A DNA stretch of 22,880 nt from a virus, in the IMG/VR virus record IMGVR_UViG_3300046460_000402, positions 1 to 22,880 of that record, one strand, 5' to 3'. Of this stretch, positions 1,952 through 22,135 are shown in pieces. A program made the position numbers and the translations under genes. Each line of letters opens with the position of its first letter. The first letter of the stretch is position 1. The notes under the pieces are model-generated. The model was given only the letters and a program-made list of their open reading frames with translations. It did not search any database and was not told where the DNA came from.

Positions 1952-2034
1952 GGGAGGGTAAAGCCGGTAGCTCCGGCGGCGGGTCTGTAAAACCCGTCCT
2001 TCGGGGAGTGGAGCGTAACCACACCCTCCCACCA
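1952..2034 (+). ncRNA. tRNA(Tyr)-like cloverleaf element with abnormal T-loop
   Basis: The 83-nt segment folds as a class II tRNA-like cloverleaf. The acceptor stem is perfect over 7 bp (1952-1958 with 2024-2030), followed by A and CCA at 2031-2034. A D-arm-like hairpin is at 1963-1977. A 5-bp anticodon stem (1980-1984/1992-1996) carries loop CTGTAAA, placing GTA (Tyr) as anticodon at 1987-1989 with T33 and A37. A short variable arm with a TTCG turn lies at 1997-2006. The T-arm position (2007-2023) has a 4-5-bp stem, but its 7-nt loop is AGCGTAA instead of the near-universal TTCRANY, and the D-loop is also atypical. It could be a degenerate tRNA, a mobile-element-borne tRNA-like RNA or another structured RNA. 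It may not be a functional tRNA. Confidence 0.4.
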
Positions 2035-2041
2035 CCATCGA

Positions 2042-2788
2042 CTATCGATAGAAGCGCACGAAATCGCCTTGCGTCGCGACGTCCAGCCGCTCGCGATAGT
2101 CGCGATGCTCCGCGGCGACCGGTGCGATACGTCCAATGACGGGGTCATCCTCGTCACTGAGCTTGGCCAGCGCGATCGGGCAGGCTACCGGCACGAGCTG
2201 CGAGCCGGTGCCGACCTGGAGCGTGGTCAGCACGCCGTACAGCGCGCCCTCGATCGTCGGGCGGCCGAGGATCGCCATCCGGTGCTGCCCGGCGACATTG
2301 GTGACCAGATAGATATGGCCCGACAGGTTCGGCATCGAGACATGCCCGGCCTGTTCGAACCGCGCATCCATACGCTGCGATTCAGCAAAGCCGAGATGCC
2401 CTGTCTCGTCGATCCAGCGGATCGTGGTGACATAAGCGAAGATGTCGCCCGGGCTGCCGAAGCTGGGCCTGAGCGTCAGATATCGTCCCTCGATCCAGCG
2501 CACCGCAGCACGGGCATAGGCGCCCATGGTTTCGGGCGCGAGATCATGGGACGGGGCGGGTGGCAGCGGCGCGACGGGGCGGAGCGTGACACCCAGCGCT
2601 TCCTCCAGCCGGATCGTCGTCGCGAGCGTGAAGGGGCGCCCGCCCGACAGCGCCTTTTCCAGGGTCGACAGGCTGATCTTCGCCATATCCGCAAGCGCCT
2701 GGCGCGAAATGCGGCGACGCGCGATCTGTTCGCGCACACGCCGGCCTACCTCACGCGTCTCGCCTTCCAGAAGATCGCGGTCCTGCAT
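2042..2788 (-). CDS. XRE-family (helix-turn-helix) transcriptional regulator
   Basis: The 248-aa product has an N-terminal Cro/C1-type HTH at about residues 15-70 ('RRISRQALADMAKISLSTLEKALSG', given here as its visible pattern: recognition helix around SLSTLEKAL). An uncharacterised C-terminal domain (about residues 85-248) could sense a ligand. The ATG at 2788 is preceded by a good GGGGAGAG ribosome site. The gene is divergent from the phage tail genes (2938 onward) with about 150 bp between, the place a phage repressor would occupy. However, it is longer than a classic C1 repressor, has no visible autocleavage Ala-Gly site, and could equally be a host regulator flanking the insertion. HTH call is firm; role as prophage repressor is only inferred from position. 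Confidence 0.72.
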   Translation of the reverse strand: MQDRDLLEGETREVGRRVREQIARRRISRQALADMAKISLSTLEKALSGGRPFTLATTIRLEEALGVTLRPVAPLPPAPSHDLAPETMGAYARAAVRWIEGRYLTLRPSFGSPGDIFAYVTTIRWIDETGHLGFAESQRMDARFEQAGHVSMPNLSGHIYLVTNVAGQHRMAILGRPTIEGALYGVLTTLQVGTGSQLVPVACPIALAKLSDEDDPVIGRIAPVAAEHRDYRERLDVATQGDFVRFYR

Positions 2789-2874
2789 TCTCTCCCCTTT
2801 TTCGAAGCGCGACTACCGCATTTTTCCGGGCGTTCCGTCAACTGTCCTGTGCCATGCCAACGCACCAAAACGCA

Positions 2875-2886
2875 GGGATTTTTCCC
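2875..2886. promoter_or_regulatory. Possible operator dyad between regulator and tail genes
   Basis: A 12-bp inverted repeat, GGGA-TTTT-TCCC, lies in the divergent intergenic region between the XRE regulator and the first tail gene. Its position fits an operator for the regulator, but only one copy is seen and four-base arms occur by chance. Confidence 0.15.
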
Positions 2887-2937
2887 GAGTCGGGGCGGTT
2901 GATTCAAACTCCGGTCCGGCTGGCCTAATCCCGCTGC

Positions 2938-3582
2938 ATGGCCATCAGCATCACCATCTGCAATCTCGCCCTTGGCGAGCTTCGCGCACCGCCCATCGCC
3001 GATATCGACGAGCCCACCACCGAGGCGGCCGAGTGCCGGCGCTATTACGCGCATTGCCTCACGCTGCTGCTCGAACGCTTCGACTGGAGCTTCGCCACCA
3101 AGGTCGCGACGCTCGCCGAACTCAGCGTGAATCCGCGAGCGAGCGAGTGGGCGCATGCCTATGCCCTGCCGGCGAATATGGCGACGGCGCAGCGGCTCGT
3201 TCCACCCGTTGGCGGCTGGCCGGGCGGGGCGGCGAGCCTGCCCGCCGTGCCGGTGCTGGCCCAGCCCTTCATCATCGAGGACGGCGTGTTGTTCAGCCAG
3301 ATGCGCGGCGCGATCCTGGAATATACCACGCGCGACGTTGCCGAGGCGGAGATGCCCGGCCTGTTCAGCGATGCGCTGGCCTATGCACTGGCCGCCCGGC
3401 TTGCCGTGCCGCTGCGCGACAGTCGCGAGACCAAGGGGCAATTGCTGCATCAGGCCGAGGTGGCAGCCCAGCGCGCCATTGCCGACGACATCAACCGCCA
3501 GCCCAATCGCGATGCGCAAACGCCCGACGAAGTGGCCGCCGTGCGCGGCGCCGGGAACGGCTGCATGATCGGAGGGCAGTGA
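2938..3582 (+). CDS. Podovirus tail tubular protein A (T7 gp11-like adaptor)
   Basis: The 214-aa product starts with the pattern typical of tail tubular A/adaptor proteins (ITICNLALGELRAPPI..., then 'EAAECRRYYAHCLTLLLERFDWSFATK' as the helical core). It also has a C-terminal helical segment ending in a Gly-rich tail. T7 gp11 forms the ring joining the portal to the tail nozzle. The ATG at 2938 lacks a recognisable Shine-Dalgarno site, but the N-terminal family pattern supports it. The stop overlaps the next start (TGATG at 3580-3584), indicating translational coupling. No portal or capsid gene lies upstream, which is unusual because gp11-type genes normally follow head genes. Confidence 0.78.
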   Translation: MAISITICNLALGELRAPPIADIDEPTTEAAECRRYYAHCLTLLLERFDWSFATKVATLAELSVNPRASEWAHAYALPANMATAQRLVPPVGGWPGGAASLPAVPVLAQPFIIEDGVLFSQMRGAILEYTTRDVAEAEMPGLFSDALAYALAARLAVPLRDSRETKGQLLHQAEVAAQRAIADDINRQPNRDAQTPDEVAAVRGAGNGCMIGGQ

Positions 3583-4562
3583 TGCCGCTGCGCACCGGAC
3601 AACCCAATTTCTCCAAAGGTGAGCTCGCCGAGGACCTGATCTCCCGCGTCGATGTCGCGGCCTATGCGACGGGTCTCAGGCGCGCGCGCAATGTCATGAT
3701 CCTCAAATATGGTGGCGTAACCAAGCGGCCGGGCACCAGGCTGGTGGCCGAGGTCTTTGACGATTCCGCACCCGTCCGGCTGATGCCGTTCCAGTTCTCG
3801 CTCACCCAGACCTACGCGCTCGAAATGGGCCAGGGCTATATGCGTCCGGCTGCGCTCGGCGGCATGGTGCTGGAAGAGAAGCTGACGATCGAGAGCATCA
3901 CGCTCGGCACCACAACGACGATCCAGGCCGCCTATCACGAATATGTTGTCGGCGATCAGGTCTATTTCCAGGGCGTCGAGGGAACGACCGAACTCAATGG
4001 CATGATCGGCCGCGTGACCGCAGTGGGGGATAGCGCGCACTTCACGGTCGATATCGATTCGACAGGCTTCACCGTATTCAGCGCGGACACCGGCGGAATC
4101 ACGCGCGTTGCGGCGCCTCCCCCTCCACCGCCACCTCCCCCTGTCCCGCCCCCACCGCCGCCTCCACCTCCGCCCGATACCGGTGGCGGCGGTTATGGCG
4201 GCGGCGGTGGCGGCTGTGTCGTGGACGATACGCCTGTCCTTATGGCCGGCGGGATCGAGCGCGAGGCTCGCTTGCTCAAGCCCGGCATCCTGATCCACAC
4301 TCAGCATCGCGACACGATGGAATGGGGCGACTATCCGGTCACCGCCATCTCGCTGATCTGGCGCCGTGTCTTCAAGGCGGACGGTTATCCGCGCGCGACG
4401 GGTGATCACCGTTTCCGGATCAACGGTGCGTGGGTCCGCATGGACACGATCGGTGAACCGGATGGTGAAGCCTGGGTGGCGCGCATCACGGTGGATGACG
4501 CCAGCACCTATGTTTCCGCCGGCGTGCTTTCGCACAACAAGGTCGCGGAGCCGGAGCTATGA
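3582..4562 (+). CDS. Tail tubular protein B N-terminal part fused to Hint (intein-like) domain
   Basis: 326 aa in three parts. Residues 1-175 match the N-terminus of podoviral tail tubular B/nozzle proteins (QPNFSKGELAEDLISRVD, 'GLRRARNVMILKYGGVTKRPGT'-type core). Residues 179-198 are almost pure proline, followed by a Gly-rich stretch to 211. Residues 212-319 look like a Hint domain. C212 starts the block A pattern (C-x4-T-P-V-L, then a KPG turn at 233-235). T273-G-D-H276 matches block B TxxH. 'TYVSAGVLSHN' ends in the H318-N319 pair of block G. The +1 residue is Lys, not C/S/T, so canonical splicing is not expected; A-type bacterial intein-like domains and hedgehog-type cleavage are better models. 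The stop overlaps the next start (ATGA at 4559-4562), and the next protein appears to continue the nozzle fold. Confidence 0.75.
   Translation: MPLRTGQPNFSKGELAEDLISRVDVAAYATGLRRARNVMILKYGGVTKRPGTRLVAEVFDDSAPVRLMPFQFSLTQTYALEMGQGYMRPAALGGMVLEEKLTIESITLGTTTTIQAAYHEYVVGDQVYFQGVEGTTELNGMIGRVTAVGDSAHFTVDIDSTGFTVFSADTGGITRVAAPPPPPPPPPVPPPPPPPPPPDTGGGGYGGGGGGCVVDDTPVLMAGGIEREARLLKPGILIHTQHRDTMEWGDYPVTAISLIWRRVFKADGYPRATGDHRFRINGAWVRMDTIGEPDGEAWVARITVDDASTYVSAGVLSHNKVAEPEL
4116..4175 (+). repeat. Polyproline-coding tract
   Basis: Twenty codons encode nine Pro, one Val and ten Pro, followed by D-T and two Gly runs (residues 201-211). All four proline codons are mixed, so the tract is kept at protein level rather than being a simple DNA slippage repeat. 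It links the nozzle N-terminal part to the Hint domain. Confidence 0.9.
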
Positions 4563-6331
4563 GCGTTGCCCGCCTCTACCGCGTCGGATCGCCCTTCAAC
4601 GGTGCCGAACTCCAGGAGGTCGACGTCGAGCAGTCGGCGGACACGATGTATTTCGCGCATCTGAACCATGCGCCAACCAAGCTGGTGCGGGCCGGGCACA
4701 CCGACTGGACCTTCTCGTCGATCGATTTCACGCCGACATTGGCCGCACCCACGGGCCTTGGGGTCACGCCGGTCGTCGGCAATTCGGTCACCAGCGGCGA
4801 CTCCCATTTTCCGCAGAACGCGAGCTATGTCGTGACGGCGATCGACGACATTTCGGGCCAGGAGAGTCGGGCGTCAACGGCCCAGACCGTGAGCAACGAC
4901 CTGACGCTGAAGAAAAACTACAACTTCCTCGGCTGGTCGGCGGTGGCCGGCGCCAGCCGCTACCGGGTCTACAAGGCCGACAATACGCAGGAATATGGCT
5001 ATATCGGCGTAACGACGTCCGCGAGTTTCACGGACGACAATATCGGCCCGGATTATTCGGACGGCCCGCCAGTCGGGAACAACCCTTTCCCCGGCAGCGA
5101 TGATTACCCTTCGACCGTCACCTTCTTCGAGCAGCGGCTGCTTTGGGGGCGGACCAACAACCGCCCGAATGCGATATGGGGCTCCCGCTCGGGCAGCTTC
5201 GAGAACATGGATATCTCGCGTCCCCTGAAGGCAAGCGACGCGCTGTCCTTCGCGCTGGTCTCGGGCCGGGTGAATGCCGTCAACCAGCTGGTCTCCACGA
5301 CCAGCCTCCTGGCGCTCACCTCCGATTCGATCTTCAAGATCGAGGGCGGGCAGACGGGCTATCTGACCGCGACGGATTTCGTCACGCGCCGCCAGAACGG
5401 GCGCGGTTCGTCGCGGCTCTCGCCGCTGGTGATCGACAGCGTCGTTTTCTACCAGACCAGCGTCGGGAACAGCGTACGGACGCTTGGTTATGAATTCTCG
5501 ACCGACAGCATCAATTCGAATGACGTCACGATCTTCTCCCCGCACCTGTTCCGGGGCTTCGACATCAAGGCCTGGGCCTATGCGCAGGAGCCGCGATCAG
5601 TGATCTGGGCGGTCCGGGGCGACGGCAAGCTTCTGTGCTTCACCTGGGAGCAGGAGCAGCAGGTCTGGGGCTGGACGCTGTGCGAGACGGCCGGGATCGT
5701 CGAGAGCGTGTGCGTGGTGTCGGAAGGGGCGGAGGACCGGCTTTACCTGACGGTTCGCCGTGGCGAGAGGCTGTTGATTGAGCGCATGGCGGCCACGCGA
5801 TGGGACGCGGTCGAGAATAGTTGCTTCCTCGACAGTGCGGTGACCCATCAGTTTGAGGAGCCGCAGACGGTGCTGCGCAATCTCGGTCACCTTGAGGGCA
5901 TGACCGTCTCCGCATTGGCGGATGGCGGCGTGATCACTGGCCTCGTCGTGACTGATGGCGTTGTCGAGCTGCCGACCGCCGCCATGACGGTGACGATCGG
6001 ATTGCCCTACACGGCCGTGATCGAGACGCTACCGCTGGCCTATCAGGGCCAGGCCGGCTGGACGATCGCCAAGCCGCAGACCCAGGCCAAGGCCGTCATC
6101 CGCCTGATCGACAGCCGCGGGGTGAAAGCGGGGCCGACCGATGCAAAGGTCGAGCCGCTGCGATCGCGCATCAACGAACTTCCCGGCCAGCCGCCCGCGC
6201 TGATGACCGGCCTGTACGAAACCTATCTGCGCGCCGCCATCAATGGCGGCGCGCGCATGGTGGTGCGATCCGACGATCCGCTGCCGATGACCGTGAGCGC
6301 AATCTATCTTGACCCTTCCGTCTCCGAATAA
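4559..6331 (+). CDS. Tail tubular protein B / nozzle, main (C-terminal) part
   Basis: The 590-aa product begins 'ARLYRVGSPFNGAELQEVD' and 'EQSADTMYFAHLNHAPTKL', segments that in intact podoviral nozzle proteins lie internally, after a region like residues 1-175 of the preceding gene. A fibronectin-III-like insert spans about 62-162 (APTGLGVTP..., 'GWSAVAGASRYRVYKA'). Next come typical nozzle motifs: 'TVTFFEQRLLWGRTNNRPN', 'IWGSRSGSFENMD' and 'DSIFKIEGG'. T7 gp12 forms the tail tube tip through which DNA and internal proteins pass. The start ATG overlaps the upstream stop (ATGA), so both halves should be made together. The gene ends inside the start of the next one (about 23 bp overlap). The reading as the second half of a split gene is inferred from family layout, with high plausibility. 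Confidence 0.78.
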   Translation: MSVARLYRVGSPFNGAELQEVDVEQSADTMYFAHLNHAPTKLVRAGHTDWTFSSIDFTPTLAAPTGLGVTPVVGNSVTSGDSHFPQNASYVVTAIDDISGQESRASTAQTVSNDLTLKKNYNFLGWSAVAGASRYRVYKADNTQEYGYIGVTTSASFTDDNIGPDYSDGPPVGNNPFPGSDDYPSTVTFFEQRLLWGRTNNRPNAIWGSRSGSFENMDISRPLKASDALSFALVSGRVNAVNQLVSTTSLLALTSDSIFKIEGGQTGYLTATDFVTRRQNGRGSSRLSPLVIDSVVFYQTSVGNSVRTLGYEFSTDSINSNDVTIFSPHLFRGFDIKAWAYAQEPRSVIWAVRGDGKLLCFTWEQEQQVWGWTLCETAGIVESVCVVSEGAEDRLYLTVRRGERLLIERMAATRWDAVENSCFLDSAVTHQFEEPQTVLRNLGHLEGMTVSALADGGVITGLVVTDGVVELPTAAMTVTIGLPYTAVIETLPLAYQGQAGWTIAKPQTQAKAVIRLIDSRGVKAGPTDAKVEPLRSRINELPGQPPALMTGLYETYLRAAINGGARMVVRSDDPLPMTVSAIYLDPSVSE

Positions 6332-6791
6332 GCGGATCGCGCTGATCGGTGCCACGCCCGTCCATGTCGGCCCGATCGCATCGCGGATGCGCGAGGCCGA
6401 TGTGATCGAGTGTGCGGCGATGGGGCACACGCCGCGACAGGCGTTGCGCGCGGGGCTGCTGTCCTCTTCGCTGTGCCTGACCGCGACGGTGGACGGGCGG
6501 CCTGAGGCGATGTTCGGCCTCGTGGTGACCAATGCGCTATGCGGCGAGGGATCGCCCTGGATGCTCGGCAGCGACGCGATCTACCGGCATCCGCGAACGA
6601 TGCTGCGCTGGGGGCCGCGCATATTATCGACGATGCTCGATTCAACTTCGGTGCTGGAGAACCTAGTAGCCGAGGACAATCACCGCGCCGTCCGCTTCCT
6701 GAAGCGGATCGGCTTCACCATCGGAAAGGAGGTGATCATGATCGCCGGCACCCGCTTTATCCCCTTTAAACAGGAGCGCGCCGATGTGTGA
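6309..6791 (+). CDS. T7 gp13-like internal virion protein A (GNAT-like fold)
   Basis: The 160-aa product has the gp13/DUF2833-type pattern: 'READVIECAAMGHTPRQAL', 'GRPEAMFGLV', 'GSPWMLGSDAIYRHPRTML', and a GNAT-like end 'NHRAVRFLKRIGFTIG'. In T7, gp13 is needed for virion morphogenesis, and homologues resemble N-acetyltransferases without proven activity. The best start is TTG at 6309, overlapping the nozzle gene by 23 bp; no nearby ATG preserves the N-terminal strand. The stop overlaps the next gene by 8 bp. Its position between nozzle and gp14-like genes matches the T7 order. Family call is reasonably firm; biochemical activity is unknown. Confidence 0.72.
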   Translation: MTLPSPNKRIALIGATPVHVGPIASRMREADVIECAAMGHTPRQALRAGLLSSSLCLTATVDGRPEAMFGLVVTNALCGEGSPWMLGSDAIYRHPRTMLRWGPRILSTMLDSTSVLENLVAEDNHRAVRFLKRIGFTIGKEVIMIAGTRFIPFKQERADV

Positions 6792-7353
6792 TCCCGTCAC
6801 GCTCGGCATCGCCGCGACTGCCGTCTCGACCGCTGGCGCCGTCACCTCCGGTATCGGCCAGGCCCAGCAATATCGCTATCAGGCCCAGATCGCCGACCAG
6901 AATGCGAGGCTGGCCAATGACCAGGCACGGGATTCGGTCGAGAATACGAACCTCGAAGCACGACAACGCTCCCGGCAGATCGCTCAGACCAAGGGCGCCC
7001 AGCTCGCGGCGATGGCTGCGAACGGCGTCGACCTGAATTTTGGATCGCCGGTCGATATCCAGAAGGACACCGCAATGATCGGCGCCGAGGATGTCGCCCA
7101 GATCTACAAGGGCGGCAATGAGCGCACCCGCGGCTTCGATATCAATGCCTTCAACTACAAATCCGAGGCTTCCGCGAACCGTGCCAAGGCGAGCGGCGCT
7201 TTGATGAAGGGAGTCTTCGACGGCCTATCGACGGCGCTAGGGGGAGCATCGCAGGCGATGGGAATGAAGAAGCCATCTACCGGGAAAACTACTGGCAGCA
7301 CTCCGGCACCAAGCGGCAAGCGTAGCGGCCTTTTGTGGGAGGGACCGGATTGA
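6784..7353 (+). CDS. T7 gp14-like internal virion protein B
   Basis: The 189-aa product starts MCDPVTLGIAATAVSTAGAV, a hydrophobic N-terminal helix, followed by long Ala/Gln-rich helices (about 28-75) and the family-like segment 'AANGVDLNFGSPVDIQKDTA'. The C-terminal tail is polar and low complexity. In T7, gp14 is ejected with gp15 and gp16 and forms the outer-membrane part of the channel through which DNA enters. ATG at 6784 has an AGGAG ribosome site. The gene ends at 7353, only 14 bp from the end of the convergent glutaminase gene, with no terminator visible. The expected gp15/16-type gene is displaced by about 5.7 kb. Confidence 0.72.
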   Translation: MCDPVTLGIAATAVSTAGAVTSGIGQAQQYRYQAQIADQNARLANDQARDSVENTNLEARQRSRQIAQTKGAQLAAMAANGVDLNFGSPVDIQKDTAMIGAEDVAQIYKGGNERTRGFDINAFNYKSEASANRAKASGALMKGVFDGLSTALGGASQAMGMKKPSTGKTTGSTPAPSGKRSGLLWEGPD

Positions 7354-7367
7354 AACAGGATAGCGTC

Positions 7368-8306
7368 CTACAAAGCCGATGGTTCGAATACTGACCATCC
7401 AGTGCGTTGCACCAAACGCTCCAGTGCCAGCGCGCCTAGCTGCGAGGTTCCGCGCGGATTGAGGCCCGGCGACCATACGGCGATCGACGCCTTGCCCGGC
7501 GCGATCGCCAGGATGCCGCCGCCAACGCCGGACTTGCCCGGCAGGCCGACGCGGTAGGCGAACTCACCCGAGCCGTCATAATGGCCGCAGGTCATCATCA
7601 GCGCGTTGATGCGGCGTGCGCGCTGGGGCGAGACGATCGAATGACCGGTCGCCGGGTTGATGCCGCCGGCCATCAGATAGCCGCCAGCGCGGGCAAGCTG
7701 GCAGCAGCTCATCGCCAGCGCGCATTGGTGGAAATACACCCCGAGCGTCCGTTCGACCGGCTGTCGGACATTGCCGAAGGCGCGCATGTAATTGGCCAGC
7801 GCGATGTTGCGGAATCCGGTCTCCTGCTCCGCCCGGGCGATGCGTTCGTCGATGAAGATGCTGTCATCGTCCGCCAGCGACCGCACGAAACGCAATATTT
7901 CGCCGATCGCCTCGATCGGCTCGTGCGCACCCAGGATCATGTCGGCGACGACGATCGCACCGGCATTGATGAACGGGTTGCGCGGGATACCAGATTCGGT
8001 TTCGAGCTGGACGATCGAGTTGAACGCGCTGCCTGATGGCTCGCGCCCGACCCTGTCCCATAGCCGGTCGCCGATTGCGCCCAAAGCGAGGGTCAGGCTA
8101 AACACCTTGGAGATGCTCTGGATCGAGAAGGGTTCATCAGCATCGCCCGCTTTGTGGCAGGTGCCGTCCGCCTCGATCACGGCGATGCCGAACTTGCCCG
8201 GATCGATCTCGGCAAGCCCCGGGATATAATCGGCCACAACGCCGCGGTCGGGCGCATCCGCCATCTCGGCCGCGATATCGGCGACGATCGTCTCAAGAGA
8301 AGCCAT
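7368..8306 (-). CDS. glsA: Glutaminase A
   Basis: The 312-aa product matches bacterial glutaminases (serine-dependent, beta-lactamase-like fold) along its full length, close to the usual ~308 aa. The enzyme hydrolyses L-glutamine to glutamate and ammonia in the cytoplasm. The S-x-x-K catalytic motif is S64-I-S-K67. Other conserved segments are '[14 protein letters not shown]', '[12 protein letters not shown]', and the C-terminal '[12 protein letters not shown]', which supplies part of the active site. It lies 40 nt after the P450 gene on the same strand and may be the last gene of that operon, although its upstream ribosome site is weak. It is a host-type enzyme, so its place inside the phage gene order is odd. 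Confidence 0.93.
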
Positions 8307-8346
8307 AGGCGTTGTTAGCGAGCCCGGCCCGCGGAATCACGCAGCT

Positions 8347-9576
8347 TCAGTCGAACTCGACCGTCAGCGATTCGGCAAAGGCACCGCTCTTGCGCAGCTT
8401 GCCCGCCGCACCGGGCGCGCGGCGCAGATTCTGGCGCTTCAGCAGCGGCTTCAGCATCAAGTGCAAGGTCGCGTTGTTGATGTGGATGCCGAAGCACTGG
8501 TGCAGGTCATAGCCGAAGTGAATATATTCGTGCGGCAGGCGGCGTGGGTTGAACCGCTCCGGATCGGGCACGCGGCGCCCGTCGCGCATCCCCGAGGCGA
8601 AGGCGGCGAGTACGGTCGAGCCGGCGGGGACGAGCTTCTGGTGCTTGGTGCCTTTCGCGATCGTCCAGTCCTGCAGCGTGATCCGCGGCAAGCCAGGCGC
8701 GAGCGGATCGAAGCGCATCGCCTCGCGCACATAGCCGGCCAGCAGCGCATCGTCGCCAGCGAGCGCGGCCGCCTGGGCACCGCTAAGCGCATCGGGCCGG
8801 CGCAGCAATTGCTCCATCGCCTGCGGCACGACCATCGGCGGCTGGGGCGGCCCGCCGACGATGAAGCCCATCAGCGCGGTGCGGATCTGGGCGTCGCTGT
8901 AACCTGGCTCTCCCGCTTTTTGCAGCGTCAGGCAGCGGCCGAGCACGTCATCGGTGCCGGGCTTGGTACGACGCTGCTCGATCTGCTTCTGGATATGCGC
9001 GCGGAGCGCTGGCGCGATCACCTCGACCTCTGCGACCAGCGGCGCGTCGCTCGCCACGAACTGATATTCGAATAGTCGCGTTCCCCAGACGCGCAGGTCG
9101 CCGCCGGGCGGTTCGGGCACGCCGAGATAATCGGCGAGGAAATCGAAGGTGACGCGCCTGACCAGCGTGTCGACCACTTCGATCCTGCCGCCGGCACCCG
9201 CCACGATCGCCTCGGCCCGCGCCTCGACATCGGCTGCGAGGTGAACAAGATCCTCGCGGCGCACCACCTTGCGCATCGCGGCAGTGTCCGCCTGATATTG
9301 CGGCGTGTTGGCCATGCCGAGGAAGAAGGGCTCGCCGCCCATGATGACGTCGAGCTTGTCCTTGTACGTCACCCCAAACGCCGGATCGGTAGCGAACACT
9401 TCGCGCACATCGTCATAGCGGGTTACCGCGTAGGTCTTGCCGAAATGCGGGATCGGTTTCAGCCAGCGCAGCAATTTGAAGACGAACGGCATGGCCGCCA
9501 TCGCCTTCGTCATGAGCCAGCGCTTGAGGCCCTTGGGTCCAGGCCGCAAGACCTCGGTGGAGGAGAGGATGCTCAT
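8347..9576 (-). CDS. Cytochrome P450 with non-canonical I-helix
   Basis: The 409-aa product has the heme-ligand loop FGYDLHQCFG with C361 as thiolate ligand, and the ExxR pair of the K-helix at E285-R288 ('YVREAMRFDP'). The I-helix oxygen-activation motif (A/G)Gx(D/E)T is missing: around residues 237-250 the sequence is GFIVGGPPQPPMVV, with several prolines and no acid/Thr pair. That suggests a peroxide-using (shunt or peroxygenase-like) enzyme, or one with altered chemistry, rather than an NAD(P)H/ferredoxin monooxygenase. No ferredoxin or reductase gene is adjacent. Its start overlaps the DyP peroxidase stop (ATGA at 9573-9576), which ties the two heme proteins together. Substrate unknown. 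Confidence 0.87.
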   Translation of the reverse strand: MSILSSTEVLRPGPKGLKRWLMTKAMAAMPFVFKLLRWLKPIPHFGKTYAVTRYDDVREVFATDPAFGVTYKDKLDVIMGGEPFFLGMANTPQYQADTAAMRKVVRREDLVHLAADVEARAEAIVAGAGGRIEVVDTLVRRVTFDFLADYLGVPEPPGGDLRVWGTRLFEYQFVASDAPLVAEVEVIAPALRAHIQKQIEQRRTKPGTDDVLGRCLTLQKAGEPGYSDAQIRTALMGFIVGGPPQPPMVVPQAMEQLLRRPDALSGAQAAALAGDDALLAGYVREAMRFDPLAPGLPRITLQDWTIAKGTKHQKLVPAGSTVLAAFASGMRDGRRVPDPERFNPRRLPHEYIHFGYDLHQCFGIHINNATLHLMLKPLLKRQNLRRAPGAAGKLRKSGAFAESLTVEFD

Positions 9577-11177
9577 AGCAGCGCCAGATATTGGAGGGCC
9601 GGCATGCTCGGCAGGAAGAAATAATCCCCGCCCGCCATTCGGATGAAGGTTTCGACGTCGACGATCCGGCGTAACGGCTTTTCGCGGATCGTCATCTTGC
9701 CCTTGGGGCCGACCAGCGGATCGGTCTCATCATAGAGCGTCGCGAAGTTCGGGTTGAGCAGCCAGGTCTGCTGAACGAATTCGAACTGGCGGGCGATGTC
9801 GGTGTTGAGACAGATGAACAGCAGGCCGCGATCGACCCCGTCCTCCCTGGGCGGCACGCTGATCGTCGAGCCATATTTGCGACCGCGGCGCAGGATGCGG
9901 TGATTGTTCGCCGCATCGAGCAGGGTCTGTTTCTGATCCGGCGTCGGCGCGAGGCCGTCGCGCGGGTTGGAACGGCGGACATGCGATCCCGCAGGGCAGC
10001 CCACGCCGTGCAGGTCGCGGTCGAAAAAGCCGAAATCATTCTCCGGCATGTCATAGGCATCGGGCGGCAGATAACCGGCGGGGCAGAGCAGGTCGCCCTT
10101 GGTATTGCGGCCGACCACGCGCTCGGCGAGCCAGGTGGTGGTGACATGTGCCGAGCCGGCGGGATCGCGCGCGCGGATGTGTGCGGCATTGTCGCGCATC
10201 GATTGCCAGAAGGCGACGACGTCCTGCTTCAATTCGCGCACGACCATATAGCTGCCGTGAATCCCGAAATCGAGGAATCCTTCCGCCAAGGGGTGCGCCT
10301 CCAGGCCGGCGGCCTGGCCATTGGCATCGTCGGGCACGACTGGGCCAGGCGCCTTTTCGTGGTGACCGTTGGTGTAGCCGAACAGGATCTCGCCGAGCGG
10401 GACGCCGTTCCAGTAATCGCGCACTGCGGGTGCGCCGGTACTGAGCACGACCGCGTCATCGTCGAACGGCACGGGTTGCGAGATGCCGTCCGCGAACCCG
10501 AAATGTTCGCGCGCGACGCCCTTCTCGTCCGGGCGCAGATCGAGCGGCAGGCGGTGGACAACCTGCACGTCATGTGGCTTCAACGCCGCTTCGACCTGCT
10601 CGGCCCAAGCCTCGGCGCTGTCCTCGTCCTTGTCGTAGAGCAGCAGCAGGGCGTGGACGGTGATCGGCGTGACGATCTGTTCCTCGCGGTGACCGGTCGA
10701 GGTCTTGGCGGTGGACTGCGCCTCCTCGACCGTCGTGAGGGCGGCGCGCTGCCGCGCGTTCGAGCTCCATTTCGGGCCGCCCTCGATCACGGTGCCGAGC
10801 CATTCGCCCTTGCGTCGATCGCCCAGCCGGCGGAGCCGATCCTCCTGGAACATGCCCTCCCGGAACGGCGCCGCGAAAGATTCGAGCGCCGATTTCGGCA
10901 GGTTCATCTTCTCCAGCCCGGCATAGGCAAAGGCGATCGCCGTCGCCCGCGCGTCACGGCCATCGGCATCGGTGACCGGCGCGAGCTCCTGCACCGTCTT
11001 GAGCCAGCCGCCACCGCCCTTGCCCTTCCAGGTGAATTCAAGGAACAGCGCCCGCCCCGTCGGCAGCGAGGCGAAGCCGCTGACGACCAGGCCCTGGGTC
11101 AGCGTGCAATGCGGCGCCTTGAGCTGCCAGCTCGGCGGCTTCTTCCGCGGCGTCCCGCTCACAGGTCGTTGATCCAC
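9573..11177 (-). CDS. DyP-type (dye-decolorizing) heme peroxidase
   Basis: The 534-aa product carries the GxxDG motif at 227-231 (GFADG, catalytic D230) and the proximal heme-ligand region 'GSHVRRSNPRD' with H399. The distal Arg segment is 'HRILRRGRKYG' (around 428-436). The length fits the longer DyP subfamilies (class D/V-like) rather than the ~300-aa encapsulin-targeted type. No Tat signal or encapsulin-targeting tail is apparent, so it is probably cytoplasmic or membrane-associated. The GTG start at 11177 has a strong AAGGAGG site 7 nt upstream. It overlaps the end of the membrane-protein gene by 19 nt and the P450 start by 4 nt. The gene order membrane protein-DyP-P450 suggests a peroxide-dependent oxidation unit, which is an inference. 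Confidence 0.92.
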   Translation of the reverse strand: MDQRPVSGTPRKKPPSWQLKAPHCTLTQGLVVSGFASLPTGRALFLEFTWKGKGGGGWLKTVQELAPVTDADGRDARATAIAFAYAGLEKMNLPKSALESFAAPFREGMFQEDRLRRLGDRRKGEWLGTVIEGGPKWSSNARQRAALTTVEEAQSTAKTSTGHREEQIVTPITVHALLLLYDKDEDSAEAWAEQVEAALKPHDVQVVHRLPLDLRPDEKGVAREHFGFADGISQPVPFDDDAVVLSTGAPAVRDYWNGVPLGEILFGYTNGHHEKAPGPVVPDDANGQAAGLEAHPLAEGFLDFGIHGSYMVVRELKQDVVAFWQSMRDNAAHIRARDPAGSAHVTTTWLAERVVGRNTKGDLLCPAGYLPPDAYDMPENDFGFFDRDLHGVGCPAGSHVRRSNPRDGLAPTPDQKQTLLDAANNHRILRRGRKYGSTISVPPREDGVDRGLLFICLNTDIARQFEFVQQTWLLNPNFATLYDETDPLVGPKGKMTIREKPLRRIVDVETFIRMAGGDYFFLPSMPALQYLALL

Positions 11178-12799
11178 GCGGACGCCTCCTTCGTGCTGAG
11201 CGACGGCTTGCGCAGGCCGTTGGCGATGCGGTTGTTGCGTTCGACCTGGTCGACGGTGAGGTCGCTATAGGCGCTGTACCAGAAGCGGCTGACCGCCATG
11301 GAATGCCGCGCCCAGGCCTTGAACTTGCGACCATGGCTGGCGCCGTCCTGGATGAGGAAGCGGGTCGGCGGGAAACCCACGCCGCAGCCCCAGGCCAACG
11401 TCAGGCCGACATGTGCCTTTTCGATGAAATCATCGAGATAGCTTTCCCAGCTCTGATCGAAATTGCTGAAGAACATCAGCCGGCTGCCATTGTTGACGAA
11501 CGCCCAATGCGCGAAATGCACCGTGCGCATGCTGCCGAGATAGCCGCGCACCCCGCTGTTCGGCATCGCGCGAAGCACCAGGCCGAGGCCGTGATGACCG
11601 ACATGAACGATGAGCGTGCGCAACACGCCCGGCTTGATCAGCACGACCGAGCCCATATGGTTCTGCGGGATCCAGTCCTCGCGCTGGGCCATCTGGCGCA
11701 CCGTCTCCTCGTCGATCGGCGGCGCATCCTGCGAGGCATCGCGCCGTTCGAGGTAGCGAAGCCAGCACAGGATGAGCAGCACCGAGAAGGGCACGCTGAG
11801 CACGCCGAACAAGGTGATGCGCGGCGCATGCTCCTTTGCCAGCGCCAGCGGCAGGCCCGTCATCAGTGAGATGGCGATAGTGATCAGCGGAGCGAGCACG
11901 GCGTAAAGGCCACCGCCCACCAGGATCAGGATGAGGGTCTGCGGTTTAAACAGCGCGCTGATCAGGTTGAACTTGCCCGCCGTGTCGGTGCCCGGCAGCG
12001 GCTCGCGGATCAGGTACAGGCGGATGCCGCAATAGAGGATGCCGAAGGCGAGCAGCAGGTAGAAGCGGCTGTCCGGCATCATCGGCGCGAGGATCAGCCC
12101 CGGCAGCGCGAGCGCGAGGAAGACGAGCACGGCGAAGACCGCGACCTTCAGATAATCGCCGCAGCGCGTGAGGAACGGGACGCGAGCCGGCGCGCGTTCG
12201 GCGAGCCAGGGAAAGGCCGGCAGCAGCGCCGCGCGGAGATGGCGATGGATATCGGACGGGGTCACCTCGCCGCGATAGGGGCTCGGACCTGCGCCGTTGG
12301 CGGTCGCGATCTCGGTACGGGTCGCGCGGAACAACTCGCCCTCGCTCAGGATGCGGTCGCGCGTCATGCCGCGGTTGCCGTGGTGGTAGACGCTTGGCTC
12401 GAGCGAGCGCGCCTCGAAATAGGGGGCGACCGGCGCGCGGGAATCAGGCGCGGTTACCGCGTCGTAGAGCGGCCCGCACGGATCGAGCGGGCGCTTGCAG
12501 CAGCGCAGCATGGCCCGCAGATCGCCCCCGATCGCTGCCTCGAGCTGACCCCAGAACACGCTCGGCCTGCCGTCGAAATTGGCCTCCAGCACGAACAGCG
12601 GATCATAGTCTTCGCCAGGGAAGACGCTCATCGACAGGAAATGCACCGAAGGCACGCCGGCCATGAACCCTGCATAGTCGCCGGCAGCGGCAGCGCTGCC
12701 GGTCGAGCCGCTGTCGTGCAGCCGGTCGATCAGCGCGGACAGCTTGTCGTGGCTCTCCGGCTTGACCTCCAGCGCCATGGACAAAGTCGTTTGTCGCAT
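11159..12799 (-). CDS. Four-TM protein with duplicated alpha/beta-barrel-like halves
   Basis: The product is 546 aa from the ATG at 12799, chosen for its AGGGAG site 7 nt upstream; an in-frame ATG at 12844 lacks one, and 12778 is a third option. Four hydrophobic segments lie near residues 216-240, 244-264, 287-312 and 326-347. The soluble parts on either side share a pattern: 'SVHFLSMSVF'...'LFVLEANFDG' (51-77) and 'TVHFAHWAFV'...'RLMFFSNFDQ' (426-449). Each is followed by a helix with acidic or amphipathic character. This resembles the ferredoxin-like half of DyP/dimeric alpha-beta-barrel proteins. No signature of a known enzyme is seen. It is the first gene of the operon with the DyP peroxidase and P450 and could anchor or supply substrate to them. 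Confidence 0.72.
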   Translation of the reverse strand: MRQTTLSMALEVKPESHDKLSALIDRLHDSGSTGSAAAAGDYAGFMAGVPSVHFLSMSVFPGEDYDPLFVLEANFDGRPSVFWGQLEAAIGGDLRAMLRCCKRPLDPCGPLYDAVTAPDSRAPVAPYFEARSLEPSVYHHGNRGMTRDRILSEGELFRATRTEIATANGAGPSPYRGEVTPSDIHRHLRAALLPAFPWLAERAPARVPFLTRCGDYLKVAVFAVLVFLALALPGLILAPMMPDSRFYLLLAFGILYCGIRLYLIREPLPGTDTAGKFNLISALFKPQTLILILVGGGLYAVLAPLITIAISLMTGLPLALAKEHAPRITLFGVLSVPFSVLLILCWLRYLERRDASQDAPPIDEETVRQMAQREDWIPQNHMGSVVLIKPGVLRTLIVHVGHHGLGLVLRAMPNSGVRGYLGSMRTVHFAHWAFVNNGSRLMFFSNFDQSWESYLDDFIEKAHVGLTLAWGCGVGFPPTRFLIQDGASHGRKFKAWARHSMAVSRFWYSAYSDLTVDQVERNNRIANGLRKPSLSTKEASAWINDL

Positions 12800-12932
12800 C
12801 CGGCCGCTCCCTATCTTCGCCCACCGCCCCCGCCTTGAAGGCATCGAGGAAACCCGTTCCCGCCCGAACGTTTCGCCTCCGATTCGGAAGGCTTACTATG
12901 TCACAGCTTTCAACGACGCACAGACAAACGCA

Positions 12933-12938
12933 ATTATA
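12933..12938 (-). promoter_or_regulatory. Candidate -10 box for the membrane protein/DyP/P450 operon
   Basis: A perfect TATAAT is read on the minus strand, about 135 nt upstream of the chosen start at 12799. The hexamer 17 nt further upstream (GGAGAT) is a poor -35. Placement is right for the operon but the call rests on one hexamer. Confidence 0.28.
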
Positions 12939-13030
12939 GGTCGCATTCTGGATCTATCTCCGGCCGGTCGCGGTCGATTCAAGATATGCTCTTGCCGCCT
13001 TAAGCCTTCCTTCAAACCAAGGAGGAGCCC

Positions 13031-16986: not shown

Positions 16987-19887
16987 GTGGCCGCAATCAG
17001 TCCGAACGTTTCGAGCGAACCCCAGCTGGGCACCGGCTCGAAAACCGATTTCGCCTTCAATTTCTCGATCGTCGCCGCGACGGACATCGGCGTCTATGTC
17101 GACGGGGTCCGCAAGGCCTACCCCGCCGATTATAGTGTCACCTTCGGCAACGTCTCCGGCACGGTGACCTTCACCGCGGCGCCGGCCAATGCGGCGGTGA
17201 TCCTGCTCGTCTCCGAGCCGGACTACCTCCAGGCGAGCGACTTCGCCGATCAGGGCGCCTACAACCTCTCGACAGTCAACACGATCAACCGCCGCGCGGC
17301 GATCCGCGAGCTGGTGAACCATGATCTCGGCACGCGCGCGCTGAAAGTGCCGCGCGGCGAGGACGCGGAGGGCCCGGAGATTCCGCTGTCGGATGTCTCC
17401 TCGATCGTGGCGGTGGGCGACAGCCTGATTGCCGGAAGCGACATTCCGAGCGTGGCAGGGGCGCTGACGAATATCGGCCTGGTCGCGGGGTCGATCGCCA
17501 ACGTCAACACCGTCGCCGGCATTCATGCGGCGGTCTCGACGGTCTCGGGCGTCGCGGCAGCGGTTTCGACCGTGTCGGGGATTACGGGCAATGTCACCGC
17601 CGTAGCTGGGATCGCCGCAAACGTGACCACGGTTGCAGGCGTCTCGGGCAGCATTTCGACGCTGGCGCCGATCGCCGCGAATATCACGACCGTTGCGGGC
17701 ATCAGTGGGGCGGTGACGACGGTTTCCGGCATCTCGGCCAACGTCAGCATCGTCGCCAGTATCGCCGCCAATGTGACCACCGTGGCCGGCATTTCGGCGA
17801 ATGTGACCTCCGTTACGGGGGCGCTGACGAACATCAACGCGGTCGCCACGAACATCGCCGCAGTCAATATCGTCGCCACGAACATCGCCGCGGTCAACAC
17901 CTGCTCGACCAACATAGCGGCGATCATTGCCGCGCCCACCGCGGCGGCCAGCATCTCCGCGGCGCTCCCGATTAAAAACAACGCGCTCTCGGCCTTCCTG
18001 CAGCTGGACCGCCTGTCGAATGCCACGCGCAACGGGAACGGTACCGCTACCTTCACGACGTTCGGCGTTTGGGGCGCGGGCACGCTGCCACGCGAATGGG
18101 CGGCGGCGCGAGATGCGGGCACGGGCATTCAGTTCTGGTGCGAATATGTCTCGGGTGCGGCGCTGTCTTCAGTCTATCTCCGCCAATATCTAGGCGTAAA
18201 TAGTACCGGCGGCCAGATCGGTTCGAACATCCAACTCGTTGGCGCGAGCGGCGACTTCATGAAGTCGATCGTCCTTGATCCAGCCTGTCTCAGCCTCGAT
18301 ATCGTCGCCAACAGCGCCGGCACCGCGACGGTTAGGGATATCGGCGGCGGCGTCGTGGCGGCGGCGCGGCCGGTGGTCGATCCGAACTTCCTCGTCTCGC
18401 AAGGGAGGGCTGTAGCGCTCCAGAACCGCGCCACAGCAATTCCTTTTCAGTACAACGCCCTGACGGGCGTCGTCGGCACGCCAACCTTGGCCAATGGCGT
18501 GCTGACAATCCCTTCTGGTGCATCGGGCGCGATGACGCTATTTTTCATAGGCAGCCGTCTAGCAAACGGTTCTGCCTGCACCATAGGTTATGCGGCAAGC
18601 TTTCCCCCGGGTAACGTGGCGCAAACCGGAACCCTCGTATATGACGCCGCTGGCGGAAGCGGGCCGCTGGCGGGACACGCGCAGGTCTACCCTATCCAGG
18701 TCGGGAATGGCATGTATCGGTGGTCCGATACGGTCGATCAACCGGCTGGCGCGGCCAACACTTGCTACGGCTTCCGTCTCACCTTCAATAACACGAGCGC
18801 AATCACCCTCGTTTTGTCTGACTTCACTGCTTGGGCGAGCGCCAATCTGCCCGTTCTTACCGAGGTGCCAGCTGTCGTGGAATCGCGGATAGGGGCAGTC
18901 GCCATGGCGGAGAGCGACGCGGGCCCGCTGATCCGGCGTTTTACGATCCTTGCCGACAGCGTGTTTCACCAGACCGACCTTACTGGACCGACTCCCGTCA
19001 CCACGGCCAAGCGCTTCCTCGGCGATTTCGGGCGCATTGGTGACCGCGCACGGCTTCGCAACCTCGCAATCCCAGGGTCGGGCTTGCGGGCGATGCTGTC
19101 ACATGCCGGGCTGCCTCCGACTACGGTCTCCCTTCCAAGCGACACGATGCCCGCCAGTGGTTCGGTCACGGTATCCTCATGGAGCGGCGACCCGATCACC
19201 GCGTTCTATGGCGCGAACCCTGAGTTTTCGCGGATCTTCTACCTCCGGGGCGTCAAGGTACTGGTGAGCGCGACATCCTTCCATGCGAACCTGTGGCCGA
19301 ATGTCGGCACTCTGGTACTGACCCGGCTTGAGGCTGGCGATGTCGTGCCGGTGCCGCCTGGCTCGAAGCTGATCAGCGAACAGGCGTTCATGATGCGTGA
19401 CGATTTTGTGGCGCTGGAAGGATCCATCAATCCGTCAAACCCGTCGATGACAGTGTTGCAGGGCGCGGCTGCGTTCTTCGCGGCGCGTGATGCCCAAGCG
19501 ACGGCGCGCGGGGAGAATCCGGCGACTGTCATCAAGAGCCTCTTCATGCCTGCGTTGATGTCGGTTCCTGGCGTCACGCCATTGACCCAGAACACAGGTC
19601 ACGCGAACACGGCGGCTCTCGTCGCGTCCTACGGGGTCGATCGCATTCTCGACCTGAATGCGCCCGGCATCCCCGGCGGCAACTATCTCAGCGCGGATGA
19701 AGCCGCATTCATGGCGGCCATCGGCTGGACAGCCAGCGGATCGGATAACGCCTACATGGTGCTCGGCTGGCGGCCTCCAAGCATGGCGCCTGACACCTAT
19801 CATCCTGACGACTATTGCGATCAGCTGCTTGGACGGCGCTTTGCCCTCTGCAATGCAGTTCAGAATTACATGGAAAACGTCGGCTGA
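16987..19887 (+). CDS. Tail fibre/spike with T7 gp17-like base, repeat shaft and SGNH-hydrolase-like tip
   Basis: 966 aa from GTG at 16987, with a strong CAGGAGG site 5-6 nt upstream. Residues 1-150 resemble the T7-type tail-fibre N-terminus, which docks to the tail ('TDFAFNFSIVAATDIGVYVDG', 'GTVTFTAAPANAAVILLVSEP' as pattern). Residues 155-325 are short repeats rich in N-V-x-T-V-A-G-I, a likely coiled or beta-helical trimer shaft. The C-terminal third has features of an SGNH/GDSL hydrolase. A strand ends in A-D-S658 ('FTILADS', the GDS block), a Gly-containing 'LAIPGSG' block follows, and a final D936-T-Y-H939 (DxxH, block V) precedes the last helix. Such tips deacetylate capsule or O-antigen during adsorption. 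The triad assignment is from motif spacing only. Confidence 0.8.
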   Translation: MAAISPNVSSEPQLGTGSKTDFAFNFSIVAATDIGVYVDGVRKAYPADYSVTFGNVSGTVTFTAAPANAAVILLVSEPDYLQASDFADQGAYNLSTVNTINRRAAIRELVNHDLGTRALKVPRGEDAEGPEIPLSDVSSIVAVGDSLIAGSDIPSVAGALTNIGLVAGSIANVNTVAGIHAAVSTVSGVAAAVSTVSGITGNVTAVAGIAANVTTVAGVSGSISTLAPIAANITTVAGISGAVTTVSGISANVSIVASIAANVTTVAGISANVTSVTGALTNINAVATNIAAVNIVATNIAAVNTCSTNIAAIIAAPTAAASISAALPIKNNALSAFLQLDRLSNATRNGNGTATFTTFGVWGAGTLPREWAAARDAGTGIQFWCEYVSGAALSSVYLRQYLGVNSTGGQIGSNIQLVGASGDFMKSIVLDPACLSLDIVANSAGTATVRDIGGGVVAAARPVVDPNFLVSQGRAVALQNRATAIPFQYNALTGVVGTPTLANGVLTIPSGASGAMTLFFIGSRLANGSACTIGYAASFPPGNVAQTGTLVYDAAGGSGPLAGHAQVYPIQVGNGMYRWSDTVDQPAGAANTCYGFRLTFNNTSAITLVLSDFTAWASANLPVLTEVPAVVESRIGAVAMAESDAGPLIRRFTILADSVFHQTDLTGPTPVTTAKRFLGDFGRIGDRARLRNLAIPGSGLRAMLSHAGLPPTTVSLPSDTMPASGSVTVSSWSGDPITAFYGANPEFSRIFYLRGVKVLVSATSFHANLWPNVGTLVLTRLEAGDVVPVPPGSKLISEQAFMMRDDFVALEGSINPSNPSMTVLQGAAAFFAARDAQATARGENPATVIKSLFMPALMSVPGVTPLTQNTGHANTAALVASYGVDRILDLNAPGIPGGNYLSADEAAFMAAIGWTASGSDNAYMVLGWRPPSMAPDTYHPDDYCDQLLGRRFALCNAVQNYMENVG
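17449..17940 (+). repeat. Shaft-coding degenerate repeats in the tail fibre
   Basis: About 20 imperfect units of seven residues, with cores such as IAANVTTVAG and ISANVTSV. At DNA level phrases like 'gccgcgaatatcacg' and 'accgttgcgggcatc' recur with third-base changes. They stay in frame, so they are protein repeats, and recombination between units could change shaft length. Confidence 0.75.
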
Positions 19888-20407: not shown

Positions 20408-20685
20408 TGACGATCAAGGCTGGCGCCGAGGCGGCAAAAGCGCTGCAACCAAGCGCGATCAACATGCCGGACCACTGGATTCGCGAGCGGGCCTGGTACC
20501 AGGTCTTCGTGCGGCTGGCGCGCCCTACGCTCGATTGGATCACCAACGCGACGGTCGCCTGGACGATGATCCTGCAACCATGGCTGTTCGACCGGTTCGA
20601 CATCACCGCGGCGGGCATGTCGCTAGCTTGGGCGGGCACGGTCTACGGCTTCAAATTCGCCGAGAAGATCAAGGGGGTTGCGTGA
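20407..20685 (+). CDS. Holin candidate
   Basis: The 92-aa product has a polar N-terminal half with Trp/Arg residues ('HWIRERAWYQVFVRLARPTL'). Two hydrophobic segments follow (about 46-63 and 68-84) before the end 'GFKFAEKIKGVA', with a basic tail. Size, two TM helices and basic C-terminus fit a class II holin, which makes holes in the inner membrane at the end of infection. It overlaps both neighbours by stop/start (TGATG), and the overlapping spanin pair follows, so the setting is a lysis cassette. No sequence family is certain. Confidence 0.6.
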   Translation: MTIKAGAEAAKALQPSAINMPDHWIRERAWYQVFVRLARPTLDWITNATVAWTMILQPWLFDRFDITAAGMSLAWAGTVYGFKFAEKIKGVA

Positions 20686-21328: not shown

Positions 21329-22135
21329 TTGAGAGATTCGTTCCAGCGCCTGATGTCGTGGCACGCCGGCACCCGGGCTCCCCTTAGCGACATGCTGTAC
21401 CGCTTCAGCCGGCGCTACATCATGGCGTGGAGCAACATCGAGAATGATCTCGGCGCCAATGGCGAGGGATGGGTCCTGCGGACGATCCTCGCCCGCCAGA
21501 CGAAAGCACCCGTGATCTTCGACGTCGGCGCGAATATCGGCGACTGGAGCGCCATGGTCGTGCCGCACCTCCCGCAGGCGCGCCTCCTTGCCTTCGAGCC
21601 CGTTCCCCCGGTGCGCGAGAAGCTGAAAAAGTCGCTCGAGGGGACCTCGGCAGAAGTGCTGAGCTACGCCCTGTCGAACGAGGCAGGCAGCGTGACCATC
21701 AATTATACGCCCGACAACCCTCACCTCTCCTCGCTGGTGAGCATGGACGGCGATTCCGCGATCGCGGTCAATTCTGTCGAGGTCGAGCGCCGCACCGGGG
21801 ACGATCTCTGCCGCGAACTCGGCATCGACCGCATCCGCTTCCTGAAGGTGGATACCGAAGGGCACGACCTGGGGGTGCTGCAGGGCTTTGCGCGCATGAT
21901 CACGGAAGGACGCATCGACGTCATCCAGTTCGAATATAATTACATGTCGATCTATTCGCGGACCTTCCTGAAAGACTTCTACGACATGCTCGCACCAGGA
22001 ATGGCGATCGGTCGGCTGCTTCCCAACCGGGTCGAGTTCGCGGAATACGACTTCGCGGCGGACAATTTCATCCAGTCGAACTGGATCGCCGTTCGCACCG
22101 ACCTGACCGAAGACCGCGCGGCCCTGAGCCAGTGA
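21329..22135 (+). CDS. FkbM-family SAM-dependent methyltransferase
   Basis: The 268-aa product has the FkbM-type core: SAM loop 'VIFDVGANIGDWS' (62-74), 'LLAFEPVPP' (86-94), 'IRFLKVDTEGHDLGVLQGF' (169-187) and 'VIQFEYNY' (198-205). The family O-methylates sugars or polyketides. Start options are TTG at 21329 with AGGGGG upstream, or ATG at 21353 without a site; I chose the former. It follows the spanin pair by about 58 bp on the same strand and is followed by a second methyltransferase after about 30 bp. It may modify surface glycans (lysogenic conversion) or be a host gene beyond the phage edge. Substrate unknown. Confidence 0.88.
   Translation: MRDSFQRLMSWHAGTRAPLSDMLYRFSRRYIMAWSNIENDLGANGEGWVLRTILARQTKAPVIFDVGANIGDWSAMVVPHLPQARLLAFEPVPPVREKLKKSLEGTSAEVLSYALSNEAGSVTINYTPDNPHLSSLVSMDGDSAIAVNSVEVERRTGDDLCRELGIDRIRFLKVDTEGHDLGVLQGFARMITEGRIDVIQFEYNYMSIYSRTFLKDFYDMLAPGMAIGRLLPNRVEFAEYDFAADNFIQSNWIAVRTDLTEDRAALSQ

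Follow-up and report, generated by a model that had tools for sequence, protein, structure and literature searches.

A split podoviral nozzle gene with a Hint-capped arm, in what looks like a dispersed, gene-transfer-agent-like element of Sphingomonas

The 22,880 base stretch of DNA analyzed here (IMG/VR record IMGVR_UViG_3300046460_000402, a fragment in that virus collection; hereafter the window) encodes a podoviral nozzle protein (tail tubular B) as two overlapping plus-strand cistrons, the first of which carries a Hint domain near its C-terminus. Cistron 1 (3582..4562; 326 aa) contains, in order, the nozzle N-terminal domain (3582..3899), an E1_FCCH-like beta-barrel (residues 109–172; 3906..4097), a polyproline arm with 19 prolines among 20 residues (9P-V-10P; 4116..4175), the Gly-rich linker DTGGGGYGGGGGG (4176..4214), a 108 aa Hint domain of bacterial intein-like (BIL) appearance reaching from Cys212 to Asn319 (4215..4538), and the seven-residue tail KVAEPEL, with Lys at +1 (4539..4559). 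Cistron 2 (4559..6331; 590 aa) holds the remainder of the nozzle and begins within an ATGA stop-start overlap (4559..4562; stop at 4560–4562, second ATG at 4559). An earlier reading made from the letters of the window (the sequence-only reading) had listed the ATG at 3582, the 19 prolines, the Gly run, C212, T273-x-x-H276, H318-N319 and Lys320, and each of these motifs was found in its place.

The profile of the nozzle family phrog_376 (tail protein) matched cistron 1 over profile residues 5–105 (E 2.5e-30) and cistron 2 over residues 103–707 (E 1.4e-144); likewise, in the intact solved nozzle 8ck1, residues 14–110 were covered by cistron 1 and about 115–820 by cistron 2. Because this coverage is contiguous, the two cistrons represent one nozzle cut at a single point, in agreement with the proposal that a nozzle gene had been divided into overlapping cistrons and that the second starts with sequence lying inside an intact nozzle protein. 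The further expectation that the Hint would fall at one point within the joined protein held for the single split point only: the Hint caps the end of the first half and is not an insert between the halves. A joined form of the nozzle does exist, with one place or gene covering the family in BPP-1, Mel-JY33 and SR18, so that the two parts are not separate families without a joined counterpart. The AlphaFold model of cistron 1 was confident over residues 101–198 and of low confidence over residues 1–96; the latter, modelled alone, suggests a first half that folds together with its partner, and the model fits this arrangement. The stop-start offset differed among relatives (-1, +2, +4, +7, +8 and +12, with different relative frames), and since offsets and frames vary, reinitiation fits better than frameshifting; a programmed frameshift fusing the cistrons was ruled out on the same grounds. 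Trans-splicing between the cistrons was likewise ruled out, as cistron 2 holds no Hint C-half. In the ancestral protein the two halves lay next to each other, which is what a Hint that rejoins them in trans would call for; given the missing C-half, and with most split relatives having no Hint of any kind, we regard such rejoining as extremely improbable.

Viral contigs were scanned with the nozzle N-part, giving 46 loci, most of them split at the same point with the FCCH-like domain and polyproline arm kept. The Hint was present in only a minority of these loci, and the remainder terminate in short tails that are mostly Gly-rich; the position and length of the polyproline arm are conserved in the Hint-less relatives. 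The window thus resembles the podoviral nozzle (phrog_376, 8ck1) in that both cistrons jointly cover the family, and differs from it in forming two chains, as do most relatives, with FCCH-like, polyproline and Hint additions. The sequence-only reading had attributed the split to the polyproline linker and the Hint, and this was not upheld, as most N-cistron relatives are split identically, with the same arm and no Hint. Since most relatives are split without a Hint, and a joined form exists, the split and the Hint appear to be separate events; most simply, the split would be the older of the two and, on these comparisons, the Hint is a C-terminal cap that may be present or absent, with no insert that need be removed to restore a nozzle. 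The N-cistron tree implies two or more changes in Hint state, with DG1-23 (L082) lying outside the main group beside a Hint-less sister, and a single Hint gain in the nozzle genes was rejected for that reason; on the Hint tree, a single clade of nozzle Hints was not rejected (p-AU 0.31).

The FCCH-like domain, absent from the sequence-only reading, follows the nozzle N-domain and precedes the polyproline. Its residues scored as E1_FCCH in Pfam (E 4.2e-6, slightly under the cut-off), the AlphaFold model gave a beta-barrel, and Foldseek matched it to the corresponding part of UBA6. This barrel of podoviral nozzle proteins, named from ubiquitin E1, is also annotated in phages of Vibrio, Nostoc and Microcystis. 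Three N-cistrons (L042, L049 and L050) carry an extra insert of ~75 residues (GQTISGTGVAPGTVISAFGTG...) past residue ~60, still within the nozzle N-domain.

The C-terminal domain of cistron 1 is firmly predicted to have a Hint fold. Its AlphaFold model (pLDDT 93.6, pTM 0.85) matched the Ssp DnaB intein (1mi8; Z 15.0, rmsd 1.9 over 110 residues), Tetrahymena BIL2 (Z 14.7), the Clostridium thermocellum BIL (Z 13.7), Hedgehog (1at0; Z 13.7) and the Spl DnaX intein (7cfv; Z 13.0), and a Foldseek search with the same model agreed with the Hint fold. A profile built from ten members found the Spl DnaX mini-intein 7cfv (E 6.6e-7) plus further inteins, so that the Hint proposed by the sequence-only reading was recovered by profile as well as by fold. 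Single-sequence Pfam scores for the window Hint were weak (Intein_splicing, E 0.25–0.27, below the cut-off); the assignment stands despite them because profile and fold decide it. In the alignment of 34 family members C1, H65, H107 and N108 were invariant (34/34), and position 62 was Thr or Ser in all 34. Median dN/dS among the nozzle-borne Hint copies was 0.26, compared to 0.27 for the nozzle N-part, indicating purifying selection.

Among known Hint systems the type A BIL domain (2lwy, C. thermocellum; 6y75/6tmm, Tetrahymena BUBL1 BIL2) is nearest, sharing the Hint fold, Cys1, the block B Thr/Ser-x-x-His, and a C-terminal His-Asn with no Cys, Ser or Thr at +1, which is how type A is defined (PMC4031507); the BIL-like kind of domain suggested earlier is therefore what was found. 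The window Hint differs in its length (108 residues, against chains of 138–156) and in that its family keeps to positions close to the C-terminal end of phage tail proteins, with Lys always at +1 or +2. Type A BIL domains are described from variable stretches of bacterial proteins that are not conserved (PMC7765530); the Hints described here occupy the C-terminal ends of conserved phage tail proteins, though within variable tails. Class 1 mini-inteins (1mi8, 7cfv) share the fold and the catalytic blocks; unlike them, the window Hint has no +1 nucleophile and no conserved downstream extein, a tail of only seven residues being followed by the stop. Hedgehog (1at0) likewise places a C-terminal Hint behind a functional domain; the window Hint has no sterol-recognition region and ends in His-Asn plus the seven-residue tail.

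The Hint profile also found the domain on J-type tip proteins (phrog_31/5616), on lambda-I-like proteins (phrog_32), on a phrog_2048 tail protein and on a minor tail protein. The Hint mostly ends the protein and mostly follows a Gly- or Pro-rich linker; the phrog_2048 copy (L068) has no Gly run immediately before the Cys, and in one locus (L071, 6001–8121) a 746-residue frame has the Hint close to its N-terminal end and continues for 581 residues past it; no other close-family member has a long stretch beyond the domain. Neither the L071 carrier nor that of a jumbo-phage contig (L005) matched a PHROG family. Two Hint-bearing tail proteins per genome were found in L068, L072 and L073 and in the contigs of L084 and L086. 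Strong Hint matches occurred in 5 of 398 Sphingomonadales genomes sampled; other members of the class, where sampled, matched only weakly, and from the phylum sample QA11 (Sphingomonas sp.) alone was recovered. A search for Hint-less J relatives that could serve as empty sites gave only Hint-bearing sequences or too few, and the single Hint-less I-like relative read (L089) ends before the linker, so that the empty-site idea rests on the nozzle. The literature searched, mostly outside subscription papers, held no report of a Hint on tail-tip proteins. The identified carriers being tail proteins with flexible linkers, and a functional domain preceding a C-terminal Hint as in Hedgehog (Z 13.7 to 1at0), the Hint could anchor the particle covalently to an amine of the host surface or the virion, much as the Hedgehog Hint passes the part N-terminal to it on to cholesterol. 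We think this quite unlikely, as the chain ends seven residues past Asn319, leaving no acceptor-recognition region, and no acceptor is known.

The residue at +1 was I, K, V, A, L or M in all of 33 representatives (clustered at 90% identity), and never Cys, Ser or Thr. Lys stood at +1 in 9 and at +2 in the other 24, so that all 33 have it at one position or the other, whereas elsewhere Lys made up 1 of 215 residues of the short tails and 64 of 3783 residues of the Hint; as the sequences are related, no simple probability can be attached to this contrast. Because the invariant Lys contrasts with an otherwise variable tail, it appears to be kept by selection, and it is the strongest mechanistic clue the alignments offer. 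Lys is found at +2 also in distant BIL domains (L102, L105, L106), and Lys at +1/+2 may be a wider feature of type A BIL domains. These distant BIL-like domains lie in long proteins, where the Lys at +2 is followed by an Asp/Gly-rich, DGDG-type stretch.

Type A BIL domains form an N-terminal thioester, cyclize the Asn and, for want of a +1 nucleophile, ligate only partially, with cleavage products dominating (PMC4031507); by analogy, this chemistry is the best model for the window Hint. The argument of the sequence-only reading that Lys at +1 speaks against normal splicing is correct to the extent that the standard class 1 branched intermediate is excluded; beyond that it is too strong, since type A BIL domains without a +1 nucleophile can splice (PMC4031507). 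The thioester may be hydrolyzed, captured by the liberated alpha-amine (splicing) or passed to the Lys side chain as an isopeptide.

Active splicing, in which the Hint joins the Gly run to the short tail and the mature arm comes to resemble the end of the Hint-less relatives, would take advantage of this capacity. The Hint-less relatives end in polyproline, Gly and a short tail, so that the Hint precedes a tail which exists without it. We nevertheless hold splicing to be improbable, as no sequence evidently common to the short tails and the Hint-less tails was seen, cleavage dominates in type A BIL domains (PMC4031507), and the single I-like relative described above ends before its linker. About as improbable, in our estimation, is that the Hint is a degenerate intein, formerly inserted in the C-terminal tail and now inert or a passenger. 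Its sporadic distribution (the Hint state changing two or more times among the N-cistrons), the non-standard +1 residue, a variable block-F His and the lack of room for an endonuclease all agree with a passenger; the retention of the four core catalytic residues in 34/34 members, a dN/dS equal to that of a structural domain, the Lys at +1/+2 in 33/33, and the repeated placement on tail-tip proteins do not.

Bacterial genes flank the tail genes of the window on both sides, and the window aligns colinearly with the complete Sphingomonas sp. QA11 chromosome over 2028–5089, 5105–7274 and 7378–12982 (at 78–85%), including a helix-turn-helix (HTH) regulator gene (2042..2788, minus strand; 91% identical in QA11) and glutaminase, P450 and DyP-like genes. 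The latter three, with a gene of no assigned function, form a minus-strand block (7368..12844) between the gp14-like and tail-fibre genes, and the order of this block beside the tail cluster is kept in QA11, in bin G004 and in L007. Phage-derived shells are known to carry DyP peroxidases as cargo. The podoviral genes of QA11 (L131, L132, L135, L136, L150) lie at 3,707–3,710 kb, 5,309–5,324 kb and 5,380–5,386 kb. Its tail genes are at 5,319–5,324 kb; the only portal found is at 5,383.5–5,385.2 kb with the capsid beside it (PF12236, PF20911 GP7), leaving about 57 kb of ordinary chromosomal genes between head and tail genes; and the single TerL obtained in the search is at 3,708 kb, 1.6 Mb from the tail genes, adjoining a 1537-residue gene which we take to be NAD-glutamate dehydrogenase. 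In ERG5 and in bin G004 the same pieces are on different contigs or far apart. About 37 kb separate portal and capsid in G1184, which has the Hint; about 30 kb separate capsid and tail genes in G1165, and 24 kb separate portal and nozzle in G1162, both without the Hint. A compact phage form was seen in L010 (integrase, terminase, portal) and in DG1-23, which has the Hint. A strict association of Hint with dispersal was rejected, G1165 (dispersed) and G1162 (portal and nozzle apart) having no Hint and DG1-23 being compact with one.

Between the window and QA11, dS was 0.42–0.90 for the adaptor, nozzle and gp13/gp14-like genes and 0.60–0.80 for the glutaminase, P450 and DyP-like genes, and dN/dS of the phage genes was about 0.1–0.3. 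For TerL, dS between QA11 and G004 was 0.37, compared to 0.38 for its neighbour, with dN/dS 0.31. Matching dS together with low dN/dS indicates that the phage genes have probably been resident as long as their neighbours and kept by selection. Flank synteny and matching dS are compatible with vertical inheritance, and within the family the nozzle occurs in few genomes. The window element looks like a domesticated, dispersed, gene-transfer-agent (GTA)-like podoviral element, known here from its genes: as in the GTAs Rhodogtaviriformidae and Bartogtaviriformidae, its structural genes derive from a Caudoviricete, are endogenized over several loci (in QA11) and appear to be inherited along with their flanks (PMC9662315), and it differs from these in that the genes are podoviral, of T7/BPP-1 type (nozzle, gp13/gp14-like). 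RcGTA-like elements are known from Sphingomonadales (PMC9662315); a podoviral GTA in Sphingomonas was not reported in the literature searched. The window could instead be a fragment of an ordinary prophage or phage, broken by recent rearrangement and never domesticated, which would accord with the compact L010 and DG1-23, with the fragmentary nature of the IMG/VR record, and with the rarity of the nozzle. We consider this unlikely, if a serious competitor, given the colinearity with a complete chromosome, flanks included, the equal divergence of phage genes and flanks at low dN/dS, and the dispersal seen also in ERG5, G1184 and the Hint-less G1165.

Taken together, the explanation to which we give somewhat better than even chances is that of a split nozzle with a Hint-capped arm serving maturation or capping of the tail, in a GTA-like particle or a phage. 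The two nozzle pieces would assemble non-covalently, and Hint-bearing arms would hang from the tail, six of them should the nozzle be hexameric like that of SU10 (PMC9509320). The Hint would turn the peptide bond preceding Cys212 into an activated thioester and cyclize Asn319; its release would be mainly by hydrolysis, or else the Gly-rich end of the arm would be passed to an amine, for which the conserved Lys at +1/+2 is the first candidate acceptor. The outcome would be a timed maturation, or a covalent capping, of the tail arms. Several points weigh against this explanation. Most relatives have no Hint. In inteins the block-F histidine aids Asn cyclization; according to the alignments, the window has Ser at this position and some relatives have Arg, Gln or Gly, and with this residue variable, Asn cyclization and C-terminal cleavage may be slow in the window Hint. 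Cleavage would in any case free a tail of seven residues only. The dS of the Hint between the window and QA11 was 1.19, above its neighbours; this stretch may have recombined, or it may evolve fast. Finally, we infer the placement of the arm outside the nozzle core, and Hint cleavage or ligation, like DNA transfer, is a predicted function. The most specific version, a dispersed podoviral GTA of Sphingomonas in which a Hint matures the tail arms with the invariant Lys as acyl acceptor (isopeptide), has perhaps an outside chance; the literature searched contained no description of isopeptide chemistry with a Lys acceptor in inteins or BIL domains.

Hint domains that process themselves have been described in inteins, in Hedgehog proteins and in surface or toxin proteins of bacteria. 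A family of them tied to the tail proteins of phages of several types points to a step in virion maturation or attachment that has gone unrecognized. The invariant Lys makes the chemistry testable through a single-residue mutation, and the compact 108-residue domain may serve as a small autoprocessing module. If particles are made, an independently domesticated GTA-like lineage would be added in Sphingomonas.

The remaining phage-type genes of the window are all on the plus strand. Upstream of cistron 1 is the tail tubular A (adaptor) gene (2938..3582; phrog_394), and cistron 2 is followed by genes for T7 gp13-like (6309..6791; phrog_308) and gp14-like (6784..7353; phrog_418) internal virion proteins. 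A scan for promoters and terminators of the window gave no result. A tail-fibre-like gene (16987..19887) weakly matched the N-terminus of the T7 tail fibre. A reading frame at 20425..20682 weakly matched GTA_holin_3TM (E 0.0053) and is kept in QA11, where it adjoins an endolysin-like gene; close to the lysis-type genes, at 21329–22135 on the plus strand, lies a gene for an FkbM-type methyltransferase.

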